A stretch of 64,000 nucleotides of DNA from Nocardioides baculatus (GTDB taxonomy: Bacteria > Actinomycetota > Actinomycetes > Propionibacteriales > Nocardioidaceae), in NCBI RefSeq assembly GCF_016735675.1, contig NZ_JAERSG010000001.1:992001-1056000 (forward strand). Direction: 5' to 3'. The notes beneath the pieces were generated by a model. The model ran no database searches. It was not told the origin of the DNA and was given only the letters and a program-made list of their open reading frames with translations. Positions 2,556-54,357 of the stretch are shown here, piece after piece (the stretch's first letter is position 1; every line of letters begins with the position of its first letter). A program made the position numbers and the translations under genes.

Positions 2556-3856
2556 CGGCGTACCTCCTCGAGCGTGCCTGGCTGGGCGACCGGTTCCACG
2601 ACGACGTGCTGGTCGAGGTGGAGGACGGACGCTTCGCGTCGGTGACCCCCGACTCCGACCCGCCGCGCGCGATCCCGGTGCGCGGGCTCGTCGTGCCGGG
2701 CCTCGCCAACACCCACAGCCACGCCTTCCACCGGGCCCTGCGCGGTCGCACCCAGCGCGAGCGCGGCACGTTCTGGACCTGGCGCGACCAGATGTACGAC
2801 GTCGCCGCGCGGCTCGATCCCGACACCTACCTCGCCCTCGCGCGGGCGACGTACCGCGAGATGGCCGCGGCCGGGATCACCTGCGTCGGGGAGTTCCACT
2901 ACCTCCACCACCAGCCCGACGGCACGCCCTACGCCGACCCCAACGAGATGGGGCTCGCCCTGGTGCACGCGGCGCGCGAGGCGGGCATCCGGATCACGTT
3001 GCTCGACACGGTCTACCTGTCGTCCGGCTTCGGCGCCGCCCCCGAGGGGGCGCAGGTGCGCTACAGCGACGGGTCGGTCGCGTCCTGGGTGGACCGGGTG
3101 GATGCGCTGGTCGAGGGAGGCCACGCCCGCGTCGGTGCGGCGGTCCACTCCGTCCGCGCGGTCCCCGCTGCCGACCTCGACGCAGTCGCGGCGTGGGTGG
3201 GCGACCGGCCGCTGCACGTCCACGTCTCCGAGCAGGTCGCCGAGAACGACGCGTGCCTGGCGGCGTACGACGTCACCCCGACGCGGCTGCTCGCCGACCA
3301 CGGCCTGGTCGGGCCGACGACATCGCTGGTGCACGCCACCCACCTCACTGACGACGACGTCACCCTCATCGGCGGGGCGCGCGCCTACGCGGCGTTCTGC
3401 CCCACCACCGAGCGCGACCTCGGCGACGGCGTCGGGCCGTCGCGGCGGCTGCACGACGCCGGCGCCCGGCTGACCCTCGGGTCCGACAGCCACGCCGTGA
3501 TCGACCCGTTCGAGGAGATGCGCGCCGTCGAGCTCGACGAGCGGCTGGCCACCCAGCAGCGCGGCCACTGGACCGCCCAGGAGCTGCTGACGGCCGCCAC
3601 CACCGACGGTCACGCGTCGCTCGGCTGGGTGGATGCGGGCGCGATCGCCGTCGGGCAGCGGGCCGACCTGGTCGTGCTGGACCCGGCGTCCCCCCGCACG
3701 GCGGGCACCGGCCGCGACGAGAACACCGCCGTCTTCGCGGCCGCCGCCGAGGACGTACGTCGCGTGATGGCGGACGGCCGCTGGATCGCCGACGACGGCG
3801 ACCGCGCCGCCATCGGGCGCGAGCTCGACGACGTGATCGGGAGGATCAGGACATGA
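2552..3856 (+). CDS. hutF: formimidoylglutamate deiminase (HutF)
   Basis: This 434-residue metal-dependent amidohydrolase has, in order, [13 protein letters not shown] (metal HxH), [15 protein letters not shown] (metal His), LVHATHL and [16 protein letters not shown] (metal/catalytic Asp). The HVSEQ and [12 protein letters not shown] segments are typical of HutF as opposed to other cytosine-deaminase relatives. HutF converts N-formimino-L-glutamate to N-formyl-L-glutamate plus ammonia in the five-step histidine pathway. It lies between the M20 amidohydrolase (4-bp overlap) and hutI, so the order differs from the biochemical order, but all three probably share a transcript. A repeat-like 133-bp spacer separates it from hutI. 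Confidence 0.93.
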
Positions 3857-3989
3857 AGCTCACCCCACGACCTTCTTCTCCTCCGCAACACTTCACCCCA
3901 CAGCCTCCTGGTTCCCCCGCTGCGCTCCTCCACCACGAGCCTGCGGGGACCTCGAAGCGCTCCTCCGAACAACGCCGCAGGGACCCCGC
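3857..3989. repeat. intergenic repeat at hutF-hutI junction (long copy)
   Basis: The spacer shares blocks with the dnaJ-hspR spacer at 39287-39356: CACCCCACGAC-x-TTCTTC right after the stop codon, CCCCCGCT-x-CGCTCCTCC in the middle, and AACGCCGC-x-GGGA just before the next start. It is flanked by CATGA on both sides: hutF ends in ...ACATGA and hutI begins with ATGA. This is the picture expected if the element went into an original ATGA stop/start overlap. This copy is about 60 bp longer than the other and repeats a GCTCCTCC word internally. Confidence 0.65.
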
Positions 3990-5153
3990 ATGACGACCAC
4001 GGTGATCACCGGCATCGGCGAGCTCGTCACCAACGACCCCGGGCGGGAGGGGCTGCTCGGCCTCGTCCACGACGCAGCTCTGGTCGTCGAGGGTGGCCGC
4101 ATCGCCTGGGTCGGCCCGGCCGCCGAGGCACCTGAGGCCGACGTCCAGGTGGACGCCGGCGGCCGCGCCGTGATCCCCGGCTTCGTGGACAGCCACAGCC
4201 ACCTCGTCTTCGCCGGCGACCGGTCGGCGGAGTTCGAGGCCCGGATGACCGGCCAGCCCTACACGGCCGGCGGCATCCGCACGACCGTCGCGCGGACCCG
4301 CGCCGCCTCCGACGAGCAGCTGACCTCCCACGTCGCCCGGCTCGTCGCCGAGATGCGGGCGCAGGGCACGACCACCCTGGAGATCAAGAGCGGCTACGGG
4401 CTGTCGGTCCACGACGAGGCGCGCAGCCTCGCGGTGGCCCGCCAGTTCACCGAGGAGACGACCTTCCTCGGCGCCCACGTGGTGCCCGCCGACACCTCTG
4501 CCGAGGCGTACGTCGACCTCGTCACCGGCCCGATGCTGGCGGCCGCGGCACCGCACGCCCGGTGGATCGACGTGTTCTGCGAGGACGGCGCCTTCGACGT
4601 CGACCAGGCGCGCACCATCCTCGCCGCGGGGTCCGCCAGCGGCCTGCGCGGGCGGCTCCACGCCAACCAGCTGACGTACGGCGGCGGCGTGCAGCTGGCC
4701 TGCGAGCTGGGCCTGGTCGCGGTCGACCACTGCACCTTCCTCAGCCCGCTGGACGTCGAGTCGCTGAGGGACTCACGGACGATCGCGACGCTCCTGCCGG
4801 GCGTGGAGTTCTCCACCCGCCAGCCCTATCCCGACGCCCGCGGCCTGCTCGACGCCGGCGTACGGATCGCCCTCGCCAGCGACTGCAACCCCGGCTCGTG
4901 CTTCACCTCCTCGATGGCGCTGTGCATCGCGCTCGCGGTCCGCGAGATGCGGATGAGCCCGGCAGAGGCGCTGCACGCGGCGACCGCCATGGGTGCCGCC
5001 GCCCTCGACCGCGACGACGTCGGCGTGCTCGCCCCCGGCAAGGCCGCCGACCTCGTCCTGCTCGACGCCCCGTCCTACGTCCACCTGGCCTACCGCCCGG
5101 GCGTCCCGCTCGTGGCGGGGGTCTGGCAGGCCGGCCGCCCCACGCTGGGGTAG
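3990..5153 (+). CDS. hutI: imidazolonepropionase (HutI)
   Basis: This 387-residue amidohydrolase has [16 protein letters not shown] (metal HxH), [14 protein letters not shown] (substrate-binding Arg region), [32 protein letters not shown] and [15 protein letters not shown] (metal Asp and active-site loop). All are characteristic of HutI, which opens the ring of 4-imidazolone-5-propionate to give N-formimino-L-glutamate, the substrate of HutF just upstream. The TAG stop lies inside the first arm of a strong inverted repeat (5147-5249), which may end this transcript. hutH and hutU are not in the window. Confidence 0.95.
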
Positions 5154-5355
5154 TCCACCGGGAAACGGTCGTCGGGCGTGCCGGGGTAGTCCACCGGCAA
5201 ACGGTCGTCCAGGCGGCCTCGGGACAGCCCTTTCCCGGTGGACTACCCCGGCCCCCGGCTACCTCAGACGTCCGTCGTACGCCGTCCGCGCACCGATCTG
5301 AGGTAGCCAGCCACGCGTAGATAGGGCACCTGCCCGATGTCCGGGCCTACCTCAG
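5147..5355. repeat. stacked direct and inverted repeats downstream of hutI
   Basis: GGGGTAGTCCACCGGGAAA (5147-5165, containing the hutI stop) is repeated with one change at 5183-5201; both copies are followed by CGGTCGTC. The perfect reverse complement of the first copy stands at 5231-5249, so either copy can pair with it. Next comes a second perfect 12-bp inverted repeat, GGCTACCTCAGA (5257-5268) with TCTGAGGTAGCC (5297-5308), and a third CCTACCTCAG at 5346-5355 that could compete for the same partner. A transcription terminator for hut and/or a leader with alternative folds for the following small gene would fit. Confidence 0.7.
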
Positions 5356-32247: not shown

Positions 32248-34059
32248 TCAGGGGTTGATGCTCTTGACCGTCTCGCACCCGCCACCGCCGGTGTCGCGAC
32301 CGCCGCCGCCGTTGCAGACGTCCTTGCGTCCGCCCCCGCCGTTCAGCTTGTCGCCCTTGCCGCCGCCCTTCACGGAGTCGTTGCCGCCTCCGCCCCGGAG
32401 CGTGTCGCGGCCGCCGTTGCCCCGCAGCTTGTCCTTGCCGCCCTGGCCCACGATCTTGTCCTTGCCGGCCTGCCCGAAGAGGCTGTCGTTGCCGGCTCCG
32501 CCGCGGATGGTGTCGTTGCCGCCACCGCCGCAGACGATGTCGTTGCCGCCCAGCCCGCGGATCCGGTCGTTGCCCTGGAGGGCGCTGATCACGTCGCGGC
32601 CGGACGTGCCGACGAGGACGTCGTTGCCCGTGGTGCCGAGGATCGTCACGTCCTGGCCCCGGCACGTGCCCTTGTCGACGACCGGCGGCGGGGGCACCAC
32701 CTTGGGCACGCTCACGACGGTGCCGCCGTTGTTGTAGACGCCGGGCTCGATTCCCTGGCCGGCCTGACCGTTGACCTCGGCGGTGTCGCCGAGCCCGCCG
32801 GCCCCGCCGGTGACGGTGTTGCCCGCGAAGCTGGAGCCTTCGACCACGCGCACGGTGCCGCTGTTGTTGAAGACGGCGCCGCCGATGCCGGCCCCGCCGC
32901 CGCCTCCGCCGCCGAAGCTGTTGGCGCCGACGGCGCCGCCGCCGTTGCCGCCGCCGGTGCCACCAAGACCAGCGACCTCACCGTCGGAGGTGTCCCCGTT
33001 GGCGTCGGCACCGCCGCCGCCGCCGCCGAAGCCGCCGTTGCCGCCGGAGCCGTCCTCGCCGCCACCGCCGCCGCCGCCGCCGAAGCCGCCGATGCCGCCC
33101 TTCTTCATCACGATCTCGTTGTCGTTCTCGCCGGCGCCGCCGCCGCCGCCGCCGATGCCGCCGTTGCCGCCGTTGGCCTCGTCGGCGCCACCGCCGCCGC
33201 CGCCACCGAGGCCGCCGTCAGCACCGTTGGTGGGGACGCCGTCGTCGCCGCCCGCGCCGCCGTTCTCGACGCCGCCGACGCCCGGGTCGGTGGTCGGCGC
33301 GCCGCCGTCGCCCGTCGTACCGCCGCCGCCGCTGCCGTCCCCGGACTCGTTCGTCGGGCCGCCCGTGCCGCCCCAGCCGCCACCGCCGGCGGCGCCGTCG
33401 CCACCGTCCGTGCCGCTGTCGCCACCGTTGCCGCCCATGCCGCCACCGCCGGCGCCACCGCCGTCGTCCTCGCCGCCGGCGTTGATGGCACCGTCGCCGC
33501 CGTTGCCGCCCTGCGCGGTGTTGCCCGTGATGGAGCCGTCGATGGTCAGGGTGCCGAGGTTGAAGACGCCGCCGCCGAGGCCGGCGCCGCCGCCTCCACC
33601 GCCACCGTTGTCGCCCTCGCCACGGTCGGTCCCGCCGTTGCCGCCGCGGGCCAGACCGCCCGTGAGGGTCACCTCCTGCAGCGTGAGGTTGGCGCCCGCG
33701 GCCACCGTGACGAGCCGGAAGGCCGGAGCTGCGGGTGCGCGGCTGATGGTCGAGCCGTTGCCGTCGATGACCAGCTCGGAGGTGATCGTCGGGAGACCGG
33801 TCGGGCCGTAGTAGGTGTTGTCCACGGCGGTGAGCTGGTAGCCGCAGCCGGCCGTCAGCTCGAGGGTGTCCGCCCCGGCGCTGGCGTTGGCCGCGGTGAT
33901 CGCGGCGACCAGGGCAGGGGTGTTGCACGCGACCGGCACCGTGGCGGCAGCAGCGGTCTGCGCCGATCCCTGTGCCGGCGGTGAGAGAACCGTGGAGGCG
34001 AGCACGCCGCTGCTGGCGAGTGCCAGCAGCGAAGCCCGAGTGAGACGTGATCTGGTCAT
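32248..34059 (-). CDS. secreted Gly-rich protein with RTX-like C-terminal repeats
   Basis: This 603-residue protein has a Sec signal (MTRSRLTRASLLALASSGVLAS...). Residues about 40-130 look like the start of a right-handed beta-helix (LELTAGCGYQLTAVDNTYYG, LVIDGNGSTISRAP, LTLQEVTLTGGLA). About 300 residues of GGNGG/GGGGG repeats follow, giving strongly biased, C/G-repeat DNA. The C-terminus (about 455-603) has RTX-like units such as GTTGNDVLVG, GGGGNDTIRG and GQAGKDKIVG; the last units replace Asp by Lys or Arg, so calcium binding may be partial. Four to six Cys near the ends could form disulfides. It is likely a surface protein; function unknown. Confidence 0.82.
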   Translation of the reverse strand: MTRSRLTRASLLALASSGVLASTVLSPPAQGSAQTAAAATVPVACNTPALVAAITAANASAGADTLELTAGCGYQLTAVDNTYYGPTGLPTITSELVIDGNGSTISRAPAAPAFRLVTVAAGANLTLQEVTLTGGLARGGNGGTDRGEGDNGGGGGGGAGLGGGVFNLGTLTIDGSITGNTAQGGNGGDGAINAGGEDDGGGAGGGGMGGNGGDSGTDGGDGAAGGGGWGGTGGPTNESGDGSGGGGTTGDGGAPTTDPGVGGVENGGAGGDDGVPTNGADGGLGGGGGGGADEANGGNGGIGGGGGGAGENDNEIVMKKGGIGGFGGGGGGGGEDGSGGNGGFGGGGGGADANGDTSDGEVAGLGGTGGGNGGGAVGANSFGGGGGGGAGIGGAVFNNSGTVRVVEGSSFAGNTVTGGAGGLGDTAEVNGQAGQGIEPGVYNNGGTVVSVPKVVPPPPVVDKGTCRGQDVTILGTTGNDVLVGTSGRDVISALQGNDRIRGLGGNDIVCGGGGNDTIRGGAGNDSLFGQAGKDKIVGQGGKDKLRGNGGRDTLRGGGGNDSVKGGGKGDKLNGGGGRKDVCNGGGGRDTGGGGCETVKSINP

Positions 34060-38116: not shown

Positions 38117-39286
38117 ATGGCTGATGACGGCTTCAGGAACGACTGGGCGACCAAGGACTTCTACCAGGTCCTCGGCATCGCCCAGGACGCGAGCGCGGCC
38201 GACGTCAAGAAGGCCTACCGCAAGCTCGCCCGCGAGAACCACCCCGACTCCAACCCCGGCAACGCCGCCAAGCACGAGAAGTTCAAGGCGATCGCCGAGG
38301 CCTACGACGTCGTCGGTGACGACGCCAAGCGGAAGAAGTACGACGAGTTCCGCTCGCTCCAGTCCCGGGGCGGGTTCAACCCGGGCATGGGCGGCGGTGG
38401 CTTCCAGGGCGGTGGCTTCAACCTCGACGACCTGCTCCGCGAGCGGGGCGGTGGCGGTGGTCTCGGTGACATGTTCGGCGACCTCTTCGGCGGCGCCCAG
38501 CGGGGTCGCACTCAGCACCAGCAGCCCCGACCCCGCCGCGGCGCCGACGTCGAGAGCACGGCCACCATCGGGTTCACCGAGGCGCTCGACGGCGTCACGG
38601 TCTCGCTCCGGCTGACCTCCGACACGGCGTGCCCCACCTGCCAGGGCACGGGCGGCAAGCCCGGCACTCGGCCGCACATCTGCCCTCAGTGCGAGGGCGC
38701 GGGCTTCGTGGTGTCCGGCACCGGTGGCGCGTTCTCGATCAACGAGACCTGCCCCGGGTGTGGCGGGCGCCAGCTGGTGTACGACGAGGCGTGCCCGACC
38801 TGCCACGGCAGCGGGCGCGGCACGTCCGCCCGCACCATCCAGGCGCGGGTCCCGGCCGGGGTGAAGGACGGCGCGAGGATCCGGCTCAAGGGCAAGGGCT
38901 CGCCCGGCGACAACGGCGGTCCCGCGGGAGACCTCTTCGTCACGGTGAAGGTCGCGCCGCACCGCGTCTTCGGTCGCTCCGGCGACAACCTCACCCTCGA
39001 CGTGCCCGTCGCGTTCGACGAGGCGGCGCTCGGCGGCGAGGTGAAGATCCCGACCCTCGGCGGTCCGCCGGTGACGCTCAAGCTGCCGCCGGGCACGCCC
39101 AACGGACGCACCTTCCGGGTGCGGGGCAAGGGCGCCACCAAGAAGGACGGCTCCAAGGGCGACCTGCTCGCGACCGTGCAGGTGCAGGTGCCCGCCACGC
39201 TCGACCAGACGGCGCGCGAGGCCCTCGAGGCCTATCGTGCGGCCATGGCCGGTACGCCCCTGCGCGCAGGACTGTTCGACTCATGA
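38117..39286 (+). CDS. dnaJ: chaperone DnaJ (Hsp40)
   Basis: This 389-residue type-I Hsp40 starts at ATG 38117 after AGGGAGGAGG. The J domain is at about 10-75 with YRKLARENHPDSNPG (HPD motif); a Gly/Phe region follows (GGFNPGMGGGGFQGGGF); then four zinc-finger repeats CPTCQGTG, CPQCEGAG, CPGCGGRQ and CPTCHGSG. The third deviates from CxxCxGxG at its end. The C-terminal peptide-binding domain contains LDVPVAFDEAALGGEVKIPTL. It stimulates DnaK ATPase. The stop is followed by the junction repeat. Confidence 0.97.
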   Translation: MADDGFRNDWATKDFYQVLGIAQDASAADVKKAYRKLARENHPDSNPGNAAKHEKFKAIAEAYDVVGDDAKRKKYDEFRSLQSRGGFNPGMGGGGFQGGGFNLDDLLRERGGGGGLGDMFGDLFGGAQRGRTQHQQPRPRRGADVESTATIGFTEALDGVTVSLRLTSDTACPTCQGTGGKPGTRPHICPQCEGAGFVVSGTGGAFSINETCPGCGGRQLVYDEACPTCHGSGRGTSARTIQARVPAGVKDGARIRLKGKGSPGDNGGPAGDLFVTVKVAPHRVFGRSGDNLTLDVPVAFDEAALGGEVKIPTLGGPPVTLKLPPGTPNGRTFRVRGKGATKKDGSKGDLLATVQVQVPATLDQTAREALEAYRAAMAGTPLRAGLFDS

Positions 39287-39356
39287 GAACACCCCACGAC
39301 GTTCTTCGTCTCCCCCGCTTCGCTCCTCCGTCGCACAACGCCGCGGGGATCCCGAC
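39287..39356. repeat. intergenic repeat at dnaJ-hspR junction (short copy)
   Basis: The spacer begins just after the dnaJ stop (tcATGA) and ends at the hspR start (acATGA). It contains CACCCCACGACGTTCTTC, CCCCCGCTTCGCTCCTCC and AACGCCGCGGGGA, the same blocks as 3857-3989. Its ends are an imperfect inverted repeat: CCCCACGACGTT against AACGCCGCGGGG. The flanking ATGA copies look like a duplicated target inside a former stop/start overlap. Confidence 0.65.
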
Positions 39357-39779
39357 ATGAGCTCGCCGTTCGGAGCCCCCAGCCCCGAGGCCGCTGTGTA
39401 CGTCATCAGCGTCGCCGCGGAGCTGACCGGGCTGCACCCGCAGACCCTGCGCGCCTACGAGCGGATGGGCCTCATCGCGCCCGGTCGCACCGGTGGCGGC
39501 GGCCGGCGCTACTCCCACCGCGACCTCGAGCGGCTGCGCCAGATCGCCGACCTCACCAGCGCGGGCATCGGGATCGAGGGCGTCCGCCGGATCATGGCTC
39601 TCGAGCTCCAGGTCGACGCGCTGCGCGCCCGCAACGAGGAGCTGCAGGCCGAGGTCGAGGCGCTGCGCCACGGCCTCGCCGCCCGCGCCGCCGGCCAGTC
39701 GGCCATGCCCGCCAACAAGCTGCCGGTGCTGCACCAGTCCGTCGGCCAGTCCGTCGTCGTCTGGCGCCGCGGCACCTGA
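39357..39779 (+). CDS. hspR: heat-shock repressor HspR (MerR family)
   Basis: This 140-residue protein starts MSSPFGAPSPEAAVYVISVA. The MerR-type winged helix is VAAELTGLHPQTLRAYERMGLIAPGRTGGGGRRYSHRDLERL; the adjoining ADLTSAGIGIEGVRRIMALE matches HspR closely. A coiled-coil region LQVDALRARNEELQAEVEAL follows. HspR binds HAIR sequences; such sites precede dnaK (35444) and clpB (41918). The unusual 70-bp repeat before it replaces the expected overlap with dnaJ. Confidence 0.95.
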   Translation: MSSPFGAPSPEAAVYVISVAAELTGLHPQTLRAYERMGLIAPGRTGGGGRRYSHRDLERLRQIADLTSAGIGIEGVRRIMALELQVDALRARNEELQAEVEALRHGLAARAAGQSAMPANKLPVLHQSVGQSVVVWRRGT

Positions 39780-45165: not shown

Positions 45166-45176
45166 ATCTCTCCGTC

Positions 45177-45266
45177 GGTCGAGAAGGGCGCCCTGCGCCC
45201 GTCACGAGACCCGTCTCCCGCGTGACGGGGTTTCGTGACGGGACTTCGTCCCTCCTCAACCAGCGG
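45177..45266. repeat. palindromic intergenic repeat, divergent copy
   Basis: This degenerate copy runs from GGTCGAGAAGGGCGCCCTGC through CCGTCACGAGACC, TTTCGTGACGGG and CTCAACCAGCGG. The order and core words match the copies at 46335-46427 and 54260-54357. It occupies most of the 173-bp region between the globin and the secreted protein genes. Confidence 0.6.
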
Positions 45267-46334: not shown

Positions 46335-46427
46335 CCGCTGGTCGAGGAGGTCGCGCCGCGACCGTCACGAGACCATGGCCCCACTGGCCGGGTCTCGTGA
46401 CAGGCACCAGGGCGCCTCGACCAGCGG
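46335..46427. repeat. palindromic intergenic repeat, canonical copy
   Basis: Outer arms CCGCTGGTCGAG and CTCGACCAGCGG are perfect inverted repeats. Inner arms CGTCACGAGACC and GGTCTCGTGAC also pair. The element lies between the peptidoglycan-binding protein and the CPBP protease genes and could form a large two-level stem-loop. Confidence 0.75.
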
Positions 46428-54259: not shown

Positions 54260-54357
54260 CCGCTGGTCGAGGAGGTCGCGCAGCGACCGTCACGAGACCT
54301 GGTCGTCGGACGGGTGGGTCTCGTGACAGGCGCCAGGGCGCCTTCCTCGACCAGCGG
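54260..54357. repeat. palindromic intergenic repeat, canonical copy
   Basis: The same element as at 46335-46427: outer CCGCTGGTCGAG...TCGACCAGCGG, inner CGTCACGAGACC...GGTCTCGTGAC, with an extra CCTT near the right arm. It lies between two convergent genes (gntR and gudD) and could act as a terminator for both. Confidence 0.75.

Follow-up and report, generated by a model that had tools for sequence, protein, structure and literature searches.

The 70-bp spacer that separates dnaJ from hspR in Nocardioides baculatus is very probably a non-autonomous mobile repeat resembling the mycobacterial interspersed repetitive units (MIRUs), about 60 to 70 bp in length, that was inserted at the ATGA shared by the two genes and would be nearly silent for translation. 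The junction lies in a 64,000-nucleotide stretch of contig NZ_JAERSG010000001.1, which was analyzed as a whole and is referred to here as the window. Its features, in window coordinates, are as follows.

38117 to 39286, plus strand: dnaJ, the upstream gene, an open reading frame with Pfam domains DnaJ, DnaJ_C, and DnaJ_CXXCXGXG; its stop TGA is at 39284 to 39286.
39283 to 39286, plus strand: left ATGA, where the dnaJ stop overlaps the mini-ORF start; read from the sequence and equivalent to the single overlap DTGA of the empty sites in relatives.
39287 to 39356, plus strand: probable inserted mobile hairpin repeat, 70 bp, between the two ATGAs (sequence, BLAST, covariance model, and empty sites).
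39291 to 39355, minus strand (antisense to the genes): repeat core, match to covariance model R1 (74.3 bits, E = 7.2e-16).
39292 to 39303, plus strand: 5' hairpin arm CCCCACGACGTT (sequence; pair conservation and covariation).
39317 to 39323, minus strand (antisense): apical GCGAAGC; most family members have GCGNAGC here (sequence and alignment).
39337 to 39348, plus strand: 3' hairpin arm AACGCCGCGGGG (sequence; pair conservation and covariation).
39283 to 39360, plus strand: bridging mini-ORF, encoding MRTPHDVLRLPRFAPPSHNAAGIPT, with its start in the left ATGA and its stop in the right ATGA.
39357 to 39360, plus strand: right ATGA, where the hspR start overlaps the mini-ORF stop (sequence and open reading frame).
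39357 to 39779, plus strand: hspR, the downstream gene for a MerR-type repressor (open reading frame; Pfam MerR_1/MerR).

An earlier note on this DNA had described a 70-bp spacer with ATGA on both sides and an imperfect inverted repeat inside it, and both were confirmed, the spacer at exactly 39287 to 39356 and the repeat as the two arms listed above. The arms form 10 Watson-Crick pairs and two A.C mismatches, the latter being G.U or G.T on the opposite strand, where the apical GCGAAGC is also read; this heptamer is an unusually stable DNA mini-hairpin. The ATG-to-ATG distance is 74 nt (2 modulo 3), and the mini-ORF has 25 codons. Folding of this copy alone was not significant (z of −0.8 for sense RNA, −1.2 for antisense RNA, and −0.5 for antisense DNA); the evidence for structure comes from the family as a whole. 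No Rfam match for a structured RNA was found in the window.

A BLAST search with the spacer located about 40 copies in the genome, which is 4.23 Mb in size. From 37 of these copies, a covariance model (R1) was built, and its search of the same genome identified at least 44 copies with cores of 59 to 65 bp, spread over tens of loci. Within the window, R1 matched the spacer at 74.3 bits (E = 7e-16) and a second site, at 3895 to 3955, at 64.7 bits, while the next match reached 15.7 bits and nothing else exceeded 16. The claim that two such spacers were unlikely to arise by chance is borne out by these scores and by the dozens of genomic copies, and chance similarity was rejected as an explanation. 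Inverted-repeat copies elsewhere, on which the reading in the earlier note depended, are thus present by the dozen. Across the genus, R1 found copies in 113 of 147 genomes, with 0 to at least 37 in each; at the level of the order, matches came from 81 of 294 genomes, representing 6 of the 37 sampled genera and including another family. Among 396 genomes sampled across the phylum, the R1 matches were confined to the source genome and one marginal match of 40 bits. An exact 44-bp consensus occurred in many named Nocardioides, in Marmoricola endophyticus, and in two Microlunatus species, M. parietis and M. speluncae, each of which gave 13 matches. Overall, this dispersed repeat has a patchy distribution in Nocardioides and hardly occurs elsewhere in the phylum sample. 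Among the papers searched, none described a repeat of this kind from Nocardioides.

Variant arrangements were also seen. Tandem head-to-tail copies occur at four loci (L007, L145, L166, and L308), most of them separated by short junctions that contain DTGA. Marmoricola endophyticus (G544; L292, L295, L298, L301, L304, and L307) carries a related repeat that shares the family's ends (CACCCCACGAGA ... CCGCGGGGACCCCGG) but has a shorter, different loop and is embedded in longer repeated flanks, which suggests a wider superfamily.

The second site in the window had been described as having the same block order as the dnaJ-hspR spacer. ATGA flanks it on either side as well, but it is a nested composite of double length and not a simple copy, with the following layout.

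3857 to 3989, plus strand: composite (nested) copy between two amidohydrolase-family genes, flanked by ATGA at 3853 to 3856 and 3990 to 3993 (sequence and Pfam).
3853 to 3993, plus strand: bridging mini-ORF of the composite, distance 137 (2 modulo 3).
3895 to 3955, minus strand: inner element, the 64.7-bit match to model R1.

The flanking amidohydrolase-family genes are probably of the hut type. The inner core sits inside the loop of an outer copy (3861 to 3886 and 3958 to 3989), and the double-length nested form occurs here and at two further genomic sites. On the antisense strand, positions 3860 to 3989 fold into one long hairpin (−63.6 kcal/mol, z of −4.65), compared with a z of −0.51 for the sense strand. 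Three further repetitive tracts were recorded in the window: a cluster of 30-nt inverted repeats (GCCGGGGTAGTCCACCGG ... CCGGTGGACTACCCCGGC) at 5144 to 5252, around the end of the amidohydrolase gene at 3990 to 5153; a different repeat, CCGCTGGTCGAGGAGGTCGCGCAGCGACCGTCACGAGACC, in three copies (45172 to 45211, 46335 to 46374, and 54260 to 54299) of 83 to 98% identity that also have a GCGCAGC core; and a long low-complexity array of the GCC/GCCGCC type with 19 overlapping 126-nt matches at 32865 to 33692, probably a glycine-rich coding stretch.

The comparison of the dnaJ-hspR junction across Nocardioides that the earlier note had proposed yielded 30 readable junctions, most of which are free of the insert and few occupied. 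The majority are plain overlaps (for example, TTCGAAGC-ATGA-GCAGCCC) in which a single ATGA or GTGA serves as stop and start, and the element is present in the source genome and four relatives (L109, L118, L121, and L122). As the junction in relatives is mostly a single overlap of this kind, the spacer is best read as an insertion that left DTGA on both sides, and the possibility of an ordinary conserved UTR was rejected on the same grounds, since the sites in relatives are mostly empty. Other occupied sites of the source genome gave a similar picture: J1, J2, and J7, and less cleanly J4 and J6, correspond to single DTGA overlaps in relatives, as in ACATGAGCCGCC of a relative against ACATGA-[element]-ATGAGCCGCC in the source genome. 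Split matches fitting filled sites were obtained for J2 and J5 in G074 and G083 from the matches alone, the sites themselves not being read; J5 is complex, and J3 had no usable ortholog. Our confidence in the repeat and in how it inserts is high, and the element has been mobile on an evolutionary time scale.

Traces of loss were sparse. One clear deletion footprint, a remnant without the hairpin, is present at the dnaJ-hspR junction of L110, and suggestive deletion remnants were noted at this junction in L104, L110, L119, L120, and L121. The general footprint of hairpin deletion (TGARCACCCCGCATGA) was found in just 2 of 147 genomes; clean loss between the ACCCC repeats is therefore rare, apart from the suggestive dnaJ-hspR remnants. 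The left and right D bases were AA in 33 copies, AG in 7, GA in 6, GG in 4, and TA in 2, and are only weakly matched. Because the two bases are not clearly correlated, they do not prove a strict target duplication of 4 bp, and one DTGA of the pair may belong to the element itself.

Orientation and reading phase were evaluated in 135 copies, 44 from the source genome and 91 from other genomes, with neighboring genes recognized by a simple codon-position GC test and not by a gene finder. The downstream gene was co-directional with the element in 126 of the 135 copies, and both neighbors were in 100. An xTGA was present at the left edge of 123 copies and at the right edge of 101, compared with 18 and 19, respectively, at control positions 60 nt away. 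Together with the recurring copies, these flanks uphold the view that the element inserts repeatedly at junctions where an ATGA serves as stop and start. A copy was called coupled when the mini-ORF opened by the left DTG terminates within the DTGA at which the next gene starts, and fused when it runs in frame into that gene. Among 87 copies with a co-directional upstream gene ending in DTGA at the edge, 52 were coupled, 26 were fused, and 9 were neither, three of the last running into a second tandem copy. When orthologous sites were grouped, 64 independent sites could be classified, as coupled (40), fused (17), out of phase (5), or other (2); one third would be expected to be out of phase (P = 3e-6), a bias that is partly inherited, as the canonical length of 65 nt is already 2 modulo 3. 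Coupled distances were 65, 68, 71, 74, and 92, and those of the three nested composites were 137 (the copy at 3857 in the window), 134, and 146. All are 2 modulo 3, indicating that changes in length step by three.

Flanks were also scored outside Nocardioides. In other genera and another family of the order, xTGA was present on the left in 15 of 17 copies and on the right in 13 of 17. For Microlunatus and Marmoricola, the left xTGA was absent in 10 of 22 copies, and one or both were absent in 11 of 22; several M. parietis copies adjoin genes on the opposite strand. The target is thus not an absolute requirement, and given the missing xTGA and the opposite-strand neighbors, target preference or selection appears to be looser in these two genera. 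At what is apparently one orthologous junction in several species (L014, L077, L079, and L084), the copies are joined in frame to the beginning of the downstream coding sequence, giving it a repeat-derived N-terminal extension conserved across these species.

The family alignment was then read for structure on both strands. Standard pairs filled 96.7% of pair cells on the antisense strand, compared with 84.6% on the sense strand. Six antisense pairs showed two-sided change, where 2.0 were expected in shuffles, and the antisense covariation score was 0.156, compared with 0.083 for shuffled and at most 0.077 for slid alignments; as the shuffles keep relatedness, these covariation figures are supportive and carry no probabilities. 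Among 40 distinct arm pairs, position 9 was seen as CG, AT, GC, and TA. With the two founder mismatch positions set aside, 13 wobbles fell on the antisense strand and 1 on the sense strand. The alignment thus indicates a hairpin that is kept by compensatory change and is better paired on the strand antisense to the genes. Strand-biased mutation pressure offers an alternative source of the wobble asymmetry. The element probably requires its antisense strand to be structured, in the simplest case as single-stranded DNA during movement, since an antisense transcript at all of these operons is less likely.

A single-stranded antisense hairpin is also what a palindrome of the REP/IS200 type, mobilized by a Y1 (HUH) transposase, would present, and the single imperfect hairpin, its strand asymmetry, the tetranucleotide flank, and the occurrence of solo and tandem copies do resemble REP elements and IS200/IS605 derivatives. 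Y1_Tnp (PF01797), however, was found in 0 of 147 genus genomes by a search whose controls were positive in E. coli and four others. This origin is highly improbable: it is already contradicted in the present hosts and would be viable only if the transposase was lost after the repeat had spread. The Y2 transposase family PF04986 was likewise matched in 0 of 147 genus genomes, with the control genomes also giving no match. The short, repeated sequence, its hairpin close to the ends, and DTGA on both sides would also fit an IS110 derivative or a classical MITE of a DDE transposase that duplicates a short target at DTGA. We nonetheless consider this origin rather unlikely, as the inverted repeat sits unevenly between the ends (about 3 nt inward from the left DTGA and about 7 nt from the right), no longer version with a transposase was seen, and an IS110 recombinase is absent from the high-copy genomes G010, G019, G021, G025, G030, and G042, each with at least 15 copies. 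An IS110 partner was rejected separately, as its presence does not track copy number in the genus. Confidence in any particular mobilizing enzyme is low.

The MIRU-like insertion that we favor would have proceeded as follows. The element would have entered the ATGA in which the dnaJ stop overlaps the hspR start, leaving an ATGA on both sides. The first ATG would then open the 25-codon mini-ORF, whose TGA overlaps the ATG of hspR, so that a ribosome leaving dnaJ would terminate and restart twice at −4 spacing, from dnaJ to the mini-ORF and from the mini-ORF to hspR. This spacing is the commonest in bacteria and among those most efficiently coupled (PMC12548453). Insertion would be nearly silent in translation, and a copy in frame elsewhere would add an N-terminal extension to the downstream protein. 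A putative trans-acting enzyme would recognize the hairpin of the antisense strand, most likely in single-stranded DNA. The bridging mini-ORFs are probably translated and the ratio of dnaJ to hspR expression is probably little changed by the insertion; our confidence in silent translational coupling through the mini-ORF is moderate.

The earlier note had instead suggested that the element may change how much HspR is made relative to DnaJ. A regulatory RNA acting as a processing site, attenuator, or translational brake could have that effect. The location within a heat-shock operon fits such a role, hairpins between cistrons can alter expression, and changes in the expression of downstream genes have been associated with copy number at MIRU loci (PMC3635867). 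Against this, the junction is occupied in few of the 30 read in the genus, the same element lies at dozens of unrelated genes, and the sense-strand fold is weak (z of −0.8), the antisense strand being the better paired. A dedicated regulatory RNA is thus improbable, and the suggestion that the element is placed to alter HspR relative to DnaJ is not supported by its distribution or by a phase that points to preserved coupling; an incidental effect on the HspR level is possible.

The closest parallel to the favored insertion is with MIRUs, described in PMC12548453 and PMC2734929 and characterized in a 2025 review as mobile, inserting at start codons, and carrying an internal ORF coupled at −4 spacing with minimal impact on genes (PMC12548453). 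Both families are of 40 to 100 bp with tens of scattered, apparently mobile, sometimes tandem copies, and both share start-codon insertion, an internal small ORF with −4 coupling, orientation in the direction of the genes, and a minimal effect on expression, which for the Nocardioides family is a prediction. They differ in host, the Nocardioides family belonging to Propionibacteriales, and no homology to the MIRU sequence emerged from a comparison made by description and through a phylum sample that perhaps lacks MIRU-bearing mycobacteria. They also differ in structure: the Nocardioides family has a covarying hairpin, whereas MIRUs are said, in the 1997 abstract of Supply et al., to lack dyad symmetry. 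REP/BIME elements with their RAYTs are similarly small, dispersed, imperfect palindromes with strand-asymmetric hairpins; unlike them, the Nocardioides repeat has no Y1 transposase in its genus and occupies stop-start overlaps with preserved frame instead of untranslated extragenic space. MITE, BOX, RUP, and ERIC elements share its non-autonomous, short, structured, intergenic, and insertion-polymorphic character, but the Nocardioides repeat inserts at gene-start DTGA with an open bridging frame, its palindrome lies away from the element ends, and it has no known parent transposon. Overall, the repeat constitutes a new family of the MIRU-like kind, distinguished by a covarying hairpin on the antisense strand. 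As a tentative extension, translation-transparent mobile elements might exist outside mycobacteria that use an enzyme other than Y1 HUH, a single-stranded antisense DNA hairpin, a start-codon target, and a length tuned to close the mini-ORF, with MIRUs as an independent example of the same strategy.

To our knowledge, how MIRU-type repeats move and survive inside operons has been an open question since 1997. The Nocardioides family offers more than 100 copies, clean empty and filled sites in soil bacteria that are not known to be pathogenic, and a hairpin whose required strand appears legible from compensatory changes, and its phase statistics provide indirect evidence for translation of the bridging mini-ORFs. 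Annotators should also be aware that, in Nocardioides genes, certain short ORFs and extensions of the N terminus derive from the repeat.
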